This document shows positions 9,081 through 52,064 of a stretch of 64,000 bases of DNA, piece after piece (positions within the stretch are counted from its first letter, which is position 1; each line of letters begins with the position of its first letter). The notes under the pieces were generated by a model that saw only the letters and a program-made list of their open reading frames with translations, had not been told where the DNA came from and searched no databases. The stretch covers positions 4,069,524 to 4,133,523 of the forward strand of contig NZ_AP027042.1 of assembly GCF_027924605.1 (NCBI RefSeq), read 5' to 3'. A program made the translations under genes and the position numbers. The DNA comes from Dyella sp. GSA-30 (GTDB taxonomy: Bacteria; Pseudomonadota; Gammaproteobacteria; Xanthomonadales; Rhodanobacteraceae).

Positions 9081-9107
9081 GTTTTGGGGTGGCACGAAGA
9101 TCAAGAG

Positions 9108-9244
9108 CCCCCTCACCCCAGCCCTCTCCCCCGGCAGAGCCAGGGGAGAGGGAGCCTACTGAGGCAACCTCAAAGGTCCGCACTTGCGCAACGCAAGCCT
9201 CCTCTCCCCTGGCTTCGCCGGGGGAGAGGGTTGGGGTGAGGGGG
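9108..9244. repeat. Double-hairpin intergenic repeat, copy A
   Basis: Outer arms CCCCCTCACCCCA and its complement TGGGGTGAGGGGG bracket two inner hairpins of the form CCCTCTCCCC...GGGGAGAGGG, around a short AT-richer core containing CTTGCGCAA. The whole element is thus an inverted repeat made of hairpins, and could fold into a cruciform or a multi-stem RNA. It lies between the pirin and HAD genes, both plus strand. Two further copies occur at 26649-26808 and 43155-43282. Confidence 0.9.
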
Positions 9245-9338
9245 CCGGGGACTCGCGAAATCCCCAGCAAAAGCTTGAAAACCCCGCTTTTCGCCCCTTC
9301 TATACTGTTATCCCATTCCAAAAAACAGACCCAGCCCC

Positions 9339-31299: not shown

Positions 31300-32084
31300 G
31301 GGCTAGCAGTAGTATCGAGGGCACGCGCCTGTTCCGAGTCCGGGAACTGGGTCTGAAGTCGCCTGCTGTAATTAAGGGCCGCATCCCTGTTGCCCAGGCG
31401 GGATTCGATGTCGTGACCGAGCTTGAGTGCCTGCGGGCTGCTGCTGGATGGCCCAAGGGCATCGTAGCGCTGCATGAAAGCACGTGCACGGAACGCATCG
31501 TTACGCTGATAAAGCATGTTGGCGAGCTGATAGAGCGCCTCGCCATTGTTCGAATCGATCGCCAACGCCTTGCGGAAAGATTCTTCCGCGCCGGCAACAT
31601 CGCCATTGCGCGATTGACAGCTACCGGCATTCGTCCAGGCCAGCGACGGCGTCTGATAGAACGGATCGGCAACGGCTTTCTGGAAATACGGCATGGCTTC
31701 GGCCGCGCGACCGGAGTTGCACAGGAATACACCCAGATTGTTGTTCGGGCCCCCGCGAGCCGGGTCGATTTCCAGCGCCTTGCGGTAGTGCAGCTCGGCG
31801 TTGGGTTGATCCTTGATGCGCTCGTAAACCACGGCGATGACGGTTTGCGCCGGCTCGTAGTTGGGGTTGTACTTGAGCGCCTTGTTGAGTTGCTCCAACG
31901 CGCCCTGCAGATCGTTGTTCTGCATGTACTGCTGGCCGAGCTGAGTCAGGATGCGCGCGCCGTCCTCGTTCTTGTTGGACTTGGTTTCACGCAAACGGCT
32001 TTCGGGTGTGTCAGGGCCGGTCGTCACGCAACCGGCAAGCGCCAGCATCAGTCCTACGGACAGAGCCGCACGATCAAGCCGCAT
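31296..32084 (-). CDS. pilW: Type IV pilus assembly lipoprotein PilW/PilF
   Basis: A 262-residue outer-membrane lipoprotein that helps the PilQ secretin form multimers. Lipobox LMLALAGC (Cys ~19) and about six TPR repeats ([60 protein letters not shown]). Start at 32084 (MRLDRAAL) is chosen because GAGGGG lies seven bases upstream; it overlaps the rlmN 3' end by 11 bp. The rlmN-pilW-rodZ order is conserved in gammaproteobacteria. Confidence 0.93.
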
Positions 32085-33216
32085 GGGCGGACCCCTCATC
32101 CAGACGCTTGCGGAATTCGGCCTGGCGACGCGTGCGATCGAGCACCTGCCCCTTCAACTGACCGCAAGCCGCATCGATGTCGTCGCCGCGCGTGCGACGC
32201 AGCATCGTCAGGATGCCGGCATTGAGCAACTGGGTCTGGAAAGCGCGAATGACTTCGACGTCCGAACGCTCGAAACGCGTACCGGGAAATGGATTGAAGG
32301 GAATCAGGTTGACCTTGCAATTGGGCAGGCGACGCATCAGCTTGATCAACTGGCGTGCATGCTCGGGCTGGTCGTTGATGCCCTTCATCAAGGTGTATTC
32401 GAAGGTGATCGACGTACGCGGCTTGCGTGCCAGCCAACGCAGGCAGGAGGCCACGAGTTCGGCGATCGGATACCGCTTGTTGAGCGGCACCAGTTCAGTG
32501 CGCAGTTCGTCGTTGGCCGCGTGCAGCGACACCGCCAGCGAGACATCAATGGATTCGGACAGCTTGTCGATCATCGGCACCAGGCCGGCGGTCGACAGGG
32601 TCACGCGCTTGGACGCCAGGCCAAAGCCGAAGTCGTCGCGCATCAGGCTCATCGCCTTGACCACGTTGTCGAAGTTCAGCAGCGGCTCGCCCATGCCCAT
32701 CATCACCACATTGGTGATGCGACGGTTCTGATGCGTGACATTGCCCAGGTGCTTGGCCGCCACCCACATCTGACCGATGATCTCGGACGTGGCGAGGTTG
32801 CGGTTGAAGCCCTGCGTCGCGGTAGAACAGAACTGGCAGTTGAGGCCGCAGCCGACCTGCGAGGACACGCACAGCGTGCCGCGCGTGGGCTCGGGAATAT
32901 AGACCGCTTCGACGGCATTGCCGCCGTCCATGCCCAACAGCCATTTGTGCGTGCCGTCGGCCGCGCCCTTGTCGAACATCGTCTTGGGCGGCCCGACATA
33001 GCAGGTCGCTTCGAGCTTGGCTCGAAGCGACCTGCCTACATCGGTCATGTTTTCGAAGTTGTCTTCCAGGCGGTGGTAGATCCACTTCATCACCTGATCG
33101 GCGCGATAAGGCTTCTCGCCGATACCGGCGAAGAAATCGCGCAGGCCCTGTCGATCGAAATCGAGCAGATTGACCTTGTCGTTGGGGGTGACTTCAACCT
33201 GGTTCACTTGCGTCAT
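32074..33216 (-). CDS. rlmN: Dual-specificity 23S rRNA/tRNA methyltransferase RlmN
   Basis: A 380-residue radical-SAM enzyme methylating C2 of A2503 in 23S rRNA and A37 of some tRNAs. The cluster motif is CGLNCQFCS, the SAM-binding GMGEPLLN follows, and the second catalytic Cys is in the C-terminal [14 protein letters not shown]. Start at 33216 (MTQVNQVEV). Odd point: codons for about residues 63-76 ([14 protein letters not shown]) are spelled by a 35-bp palindrome, and TCYVGPP stands where relatives usually have a sequence like EAEVRAP. Reading frame and length are kept, so the enzyme is probably functional. 4 bp after ndk. Confidence 0.96.
33001..33035. repeat. Perfect palindrome inside rlmN coding sequence
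   Basis: Arms GCAGGTCGCTTCGAGC and GCTCGAAGCGACCTGC pair over 16 bp with a 3-base loop; flanking ATAG/CTAC nearly extends the stem. It begins with a GTAGG-type end similar to REP-like elements. A 16-bp perfect stem is very unlikely by chance in 64 kb. It lies wholly within the rlmN frame. Confidence 0.9.
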
Positions 33217-33220
33217 GACC

Positions 33221-33646
33221 TCAGCGCGAAAAGACTTCCGTCTCGGCGAAGAAATAAGCGATTTCGACCTTGGCCGTCTCGGCCGCGTCCGAACCGTGCA
33301 CCGCATTGGCGTCGATCGAATCGGCGAAATCGGCGCGGATCGTACCCGGCGCAGCGTCCTTCGGATTGGTCGCACCCATCAGCTCACGATGCTTCAGGAT
33401 CGCGTTCTCGCCTTCCAACGCCTGGATGATCACCGGACCGGAGATCATGAACTCGACCAGCGCATTGAAGAACGGACGCTCGCGATGCACCGCGTAGAAG
33501 CCTTCGGCTTCACGACGCGACAGATGCTTCATCTTCGCAGCCACGACCTTCAGGCCGGCCTTTTCGAAGCGTGCGTAGATTTCACCGATCACGTTCTTGG
33601 CAACGGCGTCGGGCTTGATAATGGAAAGGGTGCGCTCCAGCGCCAT
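33221..33646 (-). CDS. ndk: Nucleoside diphosphate kinase
   Basis: A 141-residue cytosolic enzyme balancing NTP and dNTP pools by ping-pong phosphate transfer. The active-site His is in NAVHGSDA (~residue 117), and the N-terminal [23 protein letters not shown], and [18 protein letters not shown] are canonical. Length is normal. First gene of the ndk-rlmN-pilW-rodZ series, with 4 bp to rlmN. Confidence 0.98.
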
Positions 33647-33826
33647 AGTCGATCTGCTCCGGGAAACGGTTTTTGAGTTTTTGTGCTTGGGCGGTGCCGA
33701 CCCCCCGGCCGGCGGATTTTGGCCAAATCCGTCAAGAAATATGGATTTAGCGCGGGAAAGTCTGACAGATTCTAGCGGATACGCAAGTTGTACACATACA
33801 AGGGGACATGCTCTGTATGAAAGGTC

Positions 33827-33842
33827 TCAAACAAACGTTTGA
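33827..33842. promoter_or_regulatory. PsrA-type operator 1 (psrA promoter)
   Basis: TCAAAC-AAAC-GTTTGA: six-base arms symmetric around four bases, matching the published PsrA box form (G/C)AAAC-N2-4-GTTT(G/C). It overlaps the probable -35 element of the psrA promoter. Confidence 0.8.
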
Positions 33843-33865
33843 CGGAAGCGTTCGACCGATATAAT
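33839..33865 (+). promoter_or_regulatory. Probable sigma-70 promoter of psrA-fadB-fadA
   Basis: TTGACG at 33839-33844 and TATAAT at 33860-33865, spaced 15 bp (slightly short; TTTGAC gives 16). Operator 1 covers the -35 and operator 2 covers the expected start of transcription near 33872. This arrangement predicts repression of the operon by its own first product. Confidence 0.7.
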
Positions 33866-33866
33866 C

Positions 33867-33882
33867 TTAAACGATCGTTTGA
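33867..33882. promoter_or_regulatory. PsrA-type operator 2 (psrA promoter)
   Basis: TTAAAC-GATC-GTTTGA, with a perfect AAACGATCGTTT core. Its centre is 40 bp from that of operator 1 and it covers the predicted transcription start. Same arm and spacing pattern as operator 1 and as the site upstream of fadH. Confidence 0.8.
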
Positions 33883-33904
33883 CTCCTACCGCCCAGGCCA
33901 GAAC

Positions 33905-43099: not shown

Positions 43100-43154
43100 T
43101 CGTGTCTGAGATGCTTGATGCAACGATAAGGTTGGGAGGATAGCGCCAAGAGCG

Positions 43155-43282
43155 CCCCCTCACCCCAACCCTCTCCCCCGGCAAGCCAGGGGAGAGGGAG
43201 CTAAAGCCGGCACGTTTCGATCTTGCCTCAAGCTGCTCCCTCTCCCCTGGCTCCGCCGGGGGAGAGGGCTGGGGTGAGGGGG
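43155..43282. repeat. Double-hairpin intergenic repeat, copy C
   Basis: Third copy: outer CCCCCTCACCCC arms, inner CCCTCTCCCC hairpins, core GTTTCGATCTTGC shared with copy B. It occupies most of the gap between the FAD oxidoreductase start and the pbpC stop, both minus strand. Confidence 0.9.
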
Positions 43283-43287
43283 TGCTC

Positions 43288-45681
43288 TTACTCCACCAGA
43301 CTCACACCAAGCGCCCGCTGATCACTCTGCCCCCGATCATCCACCACACGCACCGAATAATTCCCCGCCCCCGGCGCATCCCAGAACAGCAACTCGCCGG
43401 GCGCGCTATGCCCGATATAGGCATCGTTGACGAACCAATAAAGCTGACGCACGGCCGCATCGCTATTGGCACTGAAACCGATGCGATCGTCACCCTGCTT
43501 TTTCAGCCGCATGGTGTAGATACTTCCGCGCAAGGGCGAGGTGATTCTTGGCGGTTCGCCTTCGGCCGCGCCGCCATCGACGCAGGCATCGTTCTGCGGC
43601 GGCTTTCGGCGTGGCATACCGGCCTGCACGAAGACCCGTTGCAATTCGGACGGCCAGTATTCGTAGACCTCGATATGCGTGAGCTTGCCGGCATAGGGCG
43701 GACACGCCGGTTTGCCCGTGGCATCGTCGATCACCACCGGCCTGTGCACCTGACTGACACGAATCGGCGACTTGCCAGGAATGAACCAGGTGTAGCCCTT
43801 TTGCGGACACCACTGGTTAGGCAGATCGCCACTGGCCAGACAGATTTGCTCACGTTTCAGATTGGCCGGCATGTGGTGGATGGGCTCGGACATGCCCGGC
43901 CATTGCGCACGCATCGCGTCGACGATCTGAAAGAACAAAGGCGCTGCCGCTTCCACGCCGATAAAGGCCGGATTGCCGCTGCCGTCGAAATTGCCGACCC
44001 ACACGATCAATACATAGGGGCCGAAACTGCCGGACGTCCAGGCATCTCGAAACGCCCATGACGTGCCTGTTTTCCAGTAGACCGGTACGCGCGACGGATT
44101 CGCACCGGACGCCTCGTCCGGACGCGGATTCTGCCGCAGCATGTCCATCACCATGAAGCTGGCTTCTTCGCTGATCAGTCGCGTGCCGGTAGAGGCAGGA
44201 TCGGACGCAAGCCAGCGCAGCGGCTTCAGCTCACCGCGGTTGGCCAGCATCGCGTAGAGGCCCGCCTCTTCCTGCATGGTCACCTCGCCACCACCGAGCA
44301 CCAACGCCAGCCCATAGTGTTTTTCGCTGGCCATGCGGCTGATGCCTGCCGCACGCAGGAATTGATACAGGCTGGGCTGCTGCAGCTGCGACGCCACCCA
44401 GACAGCGGGAATATTACGACTGCGAATCAATGCATCGGTCGCAGTGATCGGCCCGAGGAAATGGCCGTCGAAATTTTCCGGCGTATACGGACCGAACGAG
44501 GTCGGCACATCGCGCAATACCGTCTGCGGATGCAGTACGCCCTGATCGAAGCCCAGCGCGTAGATGAAAGGTTTCAGAGTCGAACCGGGCGAACGCTTGG
44601 CCTGTGTCCCGTTGACCTGCCCCTGGATGCCCGCGTCCGCATAGTTGGCCGAACCGACCAATGCCTTGACGCTCATATCGCGCGTATCGACCAGGATGGC
44701 TGCTGCGTTGCGTATACCTTGCGCATCGCCACGCTGGACAAAATGAGCGACTTGGCGCTCCAGCGTGTGCTGCATATCCAGGTCCAGCGTCGTGGCGATA
44801 CGGCTGTCTACGGCGTCGCCTTCGACACGCCGTGTCGCCAGGATCTGTTCGACCGCGTGCGGCGCTTCGAACGGCAGCTGCGATAACGGGCGCAGATTGA
44901 GCGGCAACGAAAACAGCGGCTTCAATGCGGCGTCGCTTGGATGCCCATGCAGCCAGCGTTCGTAGAGTCGATTGCGCGAGTCGGCCAGATACTTGCTGAT
45001 GATGCCGATCGGTGCATCGCTATCGAGCGATGGCGCACGCAAGCGGCGACTCGGATCCTGCGGTATCACCGCCAGCGTCAATGCCTCGGGTAGATTCAAT
45101 GCCGCTGGCGATTTGTCGAAATACGCGAGACTGGCCGCACCTACACCTTCGACGTTGCGGCCATAAGGCGCGTAATTCAGATACGCCTCGAGGATCTGCT
45201 GCTTGGAGTAGAACATCTCCAGCCGCACCGCAAGACCAACCTGGCGCAGCTTGCCCCATGGCGAACGGGTGTTGAGGCGATACAGCAGGCGTGCCAGCTG
45301 CATGGTGATGGTCGAACCACCTTGTGGGTTACCGTGGCGCACATAGGTCACCCAGGCGCCGCGCAACAGACCATACGGATTGAAACCCGGATGCCAGCGA
45401 AACCAGCGGTCCTCGTGCAATTGCACGGCGTCGACCAGTGCCGGCGACATGTCTTTCAGCGGCACCCACAGACGATAACGATCATCGTCGGCCAGGGTCA
45501 GACGCATCAATCGGCCGCGATCGTCGTAGACCGCGGTCGATGACGGCAGGTAATCACGCAACGACTGATGCGGCCACACACGGATGCCGACCAGTACGCA
45601 CACGATCAACCCCGCGCCGACCAGCCAGTTCTGCCAGCGTTTGATCCAGCGGATGAACGCCTGGGTTATCGAGTACGGCAA
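43288..45681 (-). CDS. pbpC: Penicillin-binding protein 1C
   Basis: A 797-residue bifunctional peptidoglycan synthase-like protein. One N-terminal membrane helix (WLVGAGLIVCVLVGIRVW), the GT51 glycosyltransferase (HEDRWFRWHPGFNP, GGSTITMQLARLLY, ~residues 65-230), the transpeptidase (SPGSTLKPF active Ser, SRNIPA, KTGTSWAFRD, ~300-570) and a BiPBP_C domain. The start codon appears to be TTG at 45681; no ATG fits before the membrane helix. It follows yfhM by 56 bp, a conserved pair. Confidence 0.95.
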   Translation of the reverse strand: MPYSITQAFIRWIKRWQNWLVGAGLIVCVLVGIRVWPHQSLRDYLPSSTAVYDDRGRLMRLTLADDDRYRLWVPLKDMSPALVDAVQLHEDRWFRWHPGFNPYGLLRGAWVTYVRHGNPQGGSTITMQLARLLYRLNTRSPWGKLRQVGLAVRLEMFYSKQQILEAYLNYAPYGRNVEGVGAASLAYFDKSPAALNLPEALTLAVIPQDPSRRLRAPSLDSDAPIGIISKYLADSRNRLYERWLHGHPSDAALKPLFSLPLNLRPLSQLPFEAPHAVEQILATRRVEGDAVDSRIATTLDLDMQHTLERQVAHFVQRGDAQGIRNAAAILVDTRDMSVKALVGSANYADAGIQGQVNGTQAKRSPGSTLKPFIYALGFDQGVLHPQTVLRDVPTSFGPYTPENFDGHFLGPITATDALIRSRNIPAVWVASQLQQPSLYQFLRAAGISRMASEKHYGLALVLGGGEVTMQEEAGLYAMLANRGELKPLRWLASDPASTGTRLISEEASFMVMDMLRQNPRPDEASGANPSRVPVYWKTGTSWAFRDAWTSGSFGPYVLIVWVGNFDGSGNPAFIGVEAAAPLFFQIVDAMRAQWPGMSEPIHHMPANLKREQICLASGDLPNQWCPQKGYTWFIPGKSPIRVSQVHRPVVIDDATGKPACPPYAGKLTHIEVYEYWPSELQRVFVQAGMPRRKPPQNDACVDGGAAEGEPPRITSPLRGSIYTMRLKKQGDDRIGFSANSDAAVRQLYWFVNDAYIGHSAPGELLFWDAPGAGNYSVRVVDDRGQSDQRALGVSLVE

Positions 45682-51761: not shown

Positions 51762-52064
51762 AGTGCTTTCCTGAGCTCATCCGATGAAACAAACGGCGGG
51801 GATCAGCCAAGCACATGCCAAAGCCGCCCGAACCACGGACGGCCAATGATCAAGCCAGCTTCCCCAATGCGAATCCTGCGCCCGAAAAATGGCAGGTTCG
51901 GGCGCAGATTGTGACATGTTGCCGCCTTCGGCGGAAACGGGGTGACGCCTGTTTAGAGGGGCGCAGGCAACCTTGTAGGAGCGACTTCAGTCGCGACCGG
52001 CCGTGACGTCACGGTGGGTCGCGACTGAAGTCGCTCCTACAGGCTTAGGCGGAGCTCTCCGGCT
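51762..52064. other. 303-bp intergenic region between galU and yfhM
   Basis: No gene. It holds the inverted repeat at 51974-52041 near the galU stop, and to its left about 200 bp that should contain the yfhM-pbpC promoter; no clear -35/-10 pair is evident. Confidence 0.5.
51974..52041. repeat. REP-like inverted repeat with nested palindrome
   Basis: Arms of 25 bp (TGTAGGAGCGACTTCAGTCG... and its exact complement ending ...GTCGCTCCTACA) enclose an 18-bp spacer that itself contains CCGTGACGTCACGG, a perfect palindrome. The TGTAGGAGCGACTTCAGTCGCGAC-type unit is widespread in pseudomonads and Xanthomonadales. It lies 23 bp after the galU stop and may end that transcript. Confidence 0.92.

Follow-up and report, generated by a model that had tools for sequence, protein, structure and literature searches.

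The rlmN gene of Dyella sp. GSA-30 carries a hairpin in codons 58-75 that appears to be an old mRNA structure of the coding region. It was probably perfected here by template switching, and it is probably, though not certainly, kept for the RNA structure that it would form. Sequence comparisons lead us to favor this combined reading with modest confidence. Should it hold, a bacterial RNA stem is embedded in conserved protein codons in about thirty species, and it was apparently made perfect by template switching that copied one arm into the other. The feature belongs to known kinds, and the shared coding-region hairpin is the larger finding.

The hairpin lies in a window of 64,000 nucleotides, the whole stretch of DNA that was analyzed (contig NZ_AP027042.1, positions 4,069,524 to 4,133,523). 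rlmN occupies 32074..33216 on the reverse strand, with its ATG at 33216 and its stop codon ending at 32074. It encodes 380 amino acids matching the Pfam families RlmN_N and Radical_SAM. The initial annotation had reported a perfect 16-bp palindrome with a 3-base loop inside this frame, and this was confirmed. The palindrome spans 33001..33035, from the second base of codon 61 to codon 72, and the forward strand reads GCAGGTCGCTTCGAGC-TTG-GCTCGAAGCGACCTGC. In mRNA sense the 5' arm is at 33035-33020, the loop at 33019-33017 and the 3' arm at 33016-33001. The arms (33001-33016 and 33020-33035) are 100% complementary and form 16 perfect pairs across a 3-nt loop. The residues encoded are G61 R62 S63 L64 R65 A66 K67 L68 E69 A70 T71 C72. 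The extended mRNA stem-loop (32993..33044, reverse strand) has 24 predicted pairs and one bulged base. Its core at codons 64-65 (33024..33029, reverse strand) consists of CTT (33027-33025 region) then CGA, both rare codons. Pausing at a domain border was also considered. The stem runs over the end of the RlmN_N match (residues 15-74), an overlap that speaks neither for nor against such pausing.

The palindrome exceeds chance expectation. Perfect inverted repeats with arms of at least 14 nt and loops of at most 12 nt were sought in 864 kb of the genome, comprising the window and 40 further 20-kb stretches (in all about 16% of the genome). Sixteen were found. Arms of at least 16 nt occur in four, including the rlmN palindrome. 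Eight of the remaining 15 lie inside complete open frames of at least 150 aa, and 0/8 of these frames have a Pfam match at E 0.001. The rlmN palindrome is the only 1/16 in a Pfam-supported frame, the frames listed being those that do not run off a stretch. When the codons were redrawn for the same protein from the gene's own usage, a mean of 9.2 of the 16 positions paired and all 16 paired in 0/5000 redraws. The observed folding energy was reached in 0/1000 such redraws (z -7.1), and a 161-nt fold gave z -6.8 relative to shuffles. The 54-nt window from codon 58 folds at -43.4 kcal/mol, the lowest of 362 windows in rlmN, and the same hairpin, in three registers, ranks top among 6339 hairpin placements tested in the gene.

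Other inverted repeats were seen during these scans. Elsewhere in the same genome, L251:15967-16006 and L266:5619-5664 contain perfect inverted repeats of 18 and 21 bp, each with a 4-nt loop, outside complete frames of at least 150 aa. A weaker shared hairpin candidate lies at about 32508-32543 (rlmN alignment index 673), with a mean of 12.7/16 pairs in 23 species and at least 14 pairs in 2/44 rows. On the strand opposite rlmN, a CTTGTCGATCATCGGC hairpin lies at about 32563-32599; many of the 30 scanned loci show 14-15/16 pairs in it when G-U is counted.

The distribution of the hairpin was examined among relatives. An rlmN match was present in 226/233 family genomes, about 160 of which were listed with places. 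The 110 rlmN genes aligned and tested comprise the gene in the window, the 29 next best with loci, and 80 from the listing, for which the next-best rows were taken first and then a hand-picked spread. A further 80 loci, some from repeat genomes and many distant, were aligned and kept out of the tree and the tests. The tree was of a quick kind, with SH-aLRT support only, and was built without the palindrome columns.

In the hairpin core, which is present in 30/110 genes, CTT CGA/CGG (codons 64-65) stands opposite CTC/CTT GAA/GAG (codons 68-69). Counting G-U, 31/110 genes have at least 14/16 pairs, each with p ≤0.0036 under same-protein codon redraw, the rows being related and not independent. 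Five genes reach 16/16 when G-U is allowed. With Watson-Crick pairs only there are two, the window genome and L122. The latter has a second perfect 16-bp palindrome (L122:1676-1710) at the same rlmN site with different arms (GCAAGACGCTTCGAGC), and it belongs to another lineage. The tree places L122 in a 19-row set (SH-aLRT 98) that excludes the window row, which pairs with L123 (SH-aLRT 97). This sister row has weaker pairing (14/16, MFE -29.3). Named carriers include Dyella tabacisoli (L035), D. sedimenti (L036), D. psychrodurans (L037) and Dyella sp. ASV24 (L034). The mean 54-nt fold is -35.2 kcal/mol in hairpin rows versus -23.8 in the other 80 rows, with overlapping ranges. RNAalifold predicted 22 pairs from 29 rows, with a bulge at V60 and a mismatch at S71. 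The hairpin state changed at least six times on the tree, which makes the hairpin dispensable. As judged from the alignment, this is an older hairpin common to about 30 related bacteria of Dyella-like genera, with its most complete form here.

The perfect form in the window genome probably arose by template switching of the arm-copying type. L118, the only relative within 3 mismatches, has the nearest sequence at the palindrome site. Relative to L118, two bases of the 5' arm differ in the window (A to G and G to T), as does one base of the 3' arm (T to A). All three differences change an amino acid, and together they turn a 15/16 RNA stem into 16 Watson-Crick pairs. The 5' arm is GCAGGTCGC in the window and GCAAGGCGC in L118, and at both changed positions the window has the base complementary to the 3' arm, GCGACCTGC. 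Lys62 is encoded by AAG or AAA in 108/110 genes, and AGG makes up 0.4% of the Arg codons in carriers. Seven residues are unique to the window genome in the 44-species clade, where its own genus is represented by one genome, and two of them are adjacent, at codons 62 and 63. Thr71 is common elsewhere in the family. Given ACC at this codon, a 5' arm rewritten from the 3' arm reads exactly GCAGGTCGC (K62R and A63S).

These differences suggest a route in which Ser71 would have become Thr, after which one template switch during replication would have overwritten the 5' arm with a copy of the 3' arm, producing K62R and A63S at once. The CTG CGC to CTT CGA change in the group also equals 3'-arm copying. 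A previous event of this type would account for it; we infer the direction and the number of such events. The stem-loop was perhaps born, as well as perfected, by template switching. In L122 the perfect form needs one change in each arm relative to its neighbors, and a single arm copy does not explain it. The initial annotation had offered two origins. The extension of a CTTCGAGC/GCTCGAAG quasi-palindrome by template switching gains from the core in 30/110 genes and from the two L118 differences in the 5' arm, and from these comparisons it may be called supported but not proven. The insertion of a mobile element fared poorly and is weighed below.

Synonymous sites in the stem look constrained, which, like the age and sharing of the hairpin, the initial annotation did not foresee. 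In the alignments, the signal is a matter of which bases appear to be allowed and not of a smaller number of changes. Summed over codons 61-72, third-position change is unexceptional, at 0.84 and 0.86 of expectation (rank about 122/356 and 92/349 windows). Among the rlmN genes with at least 14 pairs (31 rows), CTT makes up 2.0% of Leu codons and CGA and CGG 2.2% and 1.8% of Arg codons outside both sites. Across the 44-species clade, codon 64 is most often CTT (29/44), and it is the only Leu site counted for which this is so. Codon 65 is CGA in 19/44 and CGG in 11/44 (30/44 together), and it is the only Arg site counted with modal CGA. In an independent-pairs test linking CTT at codon 64 to CGR at codon 65, about 3/8 pairs agreed in direction and none was opposed, which is not significant (p 0.25).

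Within the 23-species clade, codon 65 changed four times, only between CGA and CGG. CGG is found in 9/23, and CGC and CGT are absent. Codon 68 alternates only between CTC and CTT, and codon 70 is GCG throughout. At V60 (bulge), A66 (loop) and S71, three or four different bases occur in the third position; the one at S71 faces an A of Lys62 and is unpaired in most rows. Among the 44 species, GCG at codon 70 is found in 28/29 hairpin rows versus 3/15 others. Ala63 is replaced by Thr in 8/30 hairpin rows and 0/80 others, a change that turns G-U into A-U. Across 28 distinct hairpin sequences, the only variation at pairs 20/36, 23/33 and 24/32 is an exchange of Watson-Crick for G-U pairing or the reverse. 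Because paired third positions change almost only to pairing bases, G-U included, the stem is probably kept for mRNA structure. The 30 hairpin rows contain 45 G-U cells in mRNA sense versus 16 A-C cells, which favors RNA over DNA. By our count, 11/16 of the A-C cells fall at one pair, the second base of Lys62 with the third base of Ser71. An antisense RNA was considered, and the excess of G-U over A-C is a moderate argument as to the strand. Covariation is thin. Two-sided changes were found at only two pairs, both from the window genome alone, and 14/500 shuffles did equally well. Compensatory covariation in several independent lineages was looked for in the 28 distinct hairpin sequences and was not found.

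Synonymous drift from an assumed hairpin ancestor was simulated with fitted rate variation and transition biases of about 1.7 and 3, the former being our estimate from a transition/transversion ratio of about 0.5 at four-fold sites. In the 23 species, 346 paired cells were observed versus a maximum of 343 in simulation (0/1000 runs at either bias), for a site that was chosen as striking and a clade that does not include the window genome itself. The number of rows with at least 14 pairs in these species was matched in 23 and 28/1000 runs. In the 44 species the paired cells were matched in 37 and 49/1000 runs, a borderline result. A cruder simulation at uniform rate gave 0/1000 at both biases for paired cells in the 23 species. 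In the 44 species it gave 2/1000 at bias 2 and 132/1000 at bias 5, the latter not significant.

Mutation alone is the main rival to selection on the RNA. A quasi-palindrome inherited by descent would act as a template-switch hotspot that homogenizes the arms without benefit, leaving a hairpin without a role. We consider this possible, though rather unlikely. It would explain why both 5'-arm changes match the other arm exactly even as they alter a nearly invariant Lys62, and why two perfect forms occur in separate lineages. One study in yeast reports that events of this type produce nonsynonymous and parallel changes with no adaptation involved (PMC8604942). The weak result of the 44-species simulation also fits. 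Arm copying would, however, revert CGG to CGA at codon 65, yet CGG is stable in 9/23 species without CGC or CGT appearing. Codon 70 remains GCG alongside the hairpin, and none of the 1000 drift runs kept as many pairs in the 23-species clade. Coincidence of protein sequence and codon choice is very improbable. A quasi-palindrome can encode the residues LRAKLEA, and family rows without the core still have about 10 pairs on average by codon redraw. This explanation was already disfavored by the absence of 16 pairs among the 5000 redraws here, and the core uses CTT and CGA/CGG, which are rare codons in these genes. A DNA-level dyad inside rlmN, such as a putative regulator binding site, is a shade less probable still. 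The symmetric core is conserved in 30/110 genes, but no further sites were found above control in the same genome, nor by the covariance model in 12 genomes, and the 45 cells counted above show tolerance of G-U type changes, by which symmetry in the DNA is lost.

Rickettsia palindromic elements and REP elements are palindromic, inserted and dispersed, and the Rickettsia ones lie in frame within genes. The rlmN hairpin is likewise palindromic and is neither inserted nor dispersed. In-frame insertion or replacement by such an element would account for the existence of the palindrome itself, and its probability is negligible. The rlmN homologues have equal length at the palindrome site and the same residue pattern, homologous throughout. 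TCYVGPP had been thought odd beside an EAEVRAP-like segment. That was a mistake, as it is an ordinary family form and (S/T/A)C(Y/H)(V/I)G(P/A)P is usual among near relatives. The family alignment contains no sudden insert, and the hairpin core recurs in the 30 genes. At up to 3 mismatches the full 35-mer was found in 2/233 family genomes (the same genome and G062), both times within rlmN, and no copy was found outside rlmN in the 233. A single arm at up to 3 mismatches gave 216 matches in the same genome versus 102 for a reversed control; among the matches listed only three had fewer than 2 mismatches, and two of these are the rlmN palindrome itself. With up to 2 mismatches allowed, the core CTTCGAGCNNNGCTCGAAG occurred in 4 places in the genome versus 7 for the reversed-pattern control, so there is no excess and no dispersed unit of the kind that had been suggested. 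A covariance model of the element matched rlmN in 12/12 genomes and nothing outside rlmN below E 0.29 in these genomes, with 150 first-look candidates scored per genome. Rfam 15 gave no match up to E 1 over 31900-33900. With no length change, no foreign segment and no dispersed copies, an in-frame REP-like insertion or replacement was rejected, the relatives having already refuted it.

If the stem is kept for an mRNA-level role, as is moderately likely, that role may be slower elongation, message stability, or the binding of a protein or RNase. A bolder proposal, in our view improbable, is that the hairpin is a cis-acting control element in Dyella-like rlmN mRNA. Its reader would be RlmN itself, the elongating ribosome or a double-strand RNase, and template switching would repair it time and again, such that mutation and selection jointly keep an RNA structure in conserved codons. 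Nothing on point appeared among the literature matches listed for RlmN autoregulation, an rlmN mRNA hairpin, Dyella mRNA hairpins or conserved coding RNA structure, as far as the text of those matches extends. The relatives provide a natural series, in which the hairpin is absent, has 14-15/16 pairs, or takes two different perfect forms. This series allows mutational drive to be separated from selection on mRNA structure.

Precedents for perfected arms come from template switching in other systems (PMC8794818 and PMC8604942). In quasipalindrome template switching, as described in PMC8604942 and PMC7202029, an imperfect inverted repeat is made perfect and the clustered substitutions are the reverse complement of the other arm. 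The rlmN case resembles it in the arm-copy substitutions, the amino-acid changes in coding DNA and the parallel cases in separate lineages. It differs in that the event is deduced by aligning different species instead of being observed directly as a mutation, and in that the stem also looks conserved in many species. Template switching that creates and maintains RNA hairpins likewise changes the arms of an RNA stem in one copying event, but in PMC8794818 it is described for rRNA and microRNA genes, whereas rlmN is a bacterial protein-coding gene. The coding palindromes of Nematomorpha mitochondria (PMC6649704) are also perfect inverted repeats within conserved codons. They are numerous and up to 284 bp long, whereas rlmN has one 16-bp palindrome (24 RNA pairs).

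Two further sets of repeats were noted in the window. Two similar composite palindromes lie at 9107-9245 and 43148-43289. Both contain a pair of CCCTCTCCCC..GGGGAGAGGG hairpins, their inverted arms measure 35-45 nt, and they likely form a dispersed repeat family. At 51969-52046 a 39-nt inverted pair (TGTAGGAGCGACTTCAGTCGCGACC... and its complement) is 90% complementary with no spacer, and it resembles a REP-type element.
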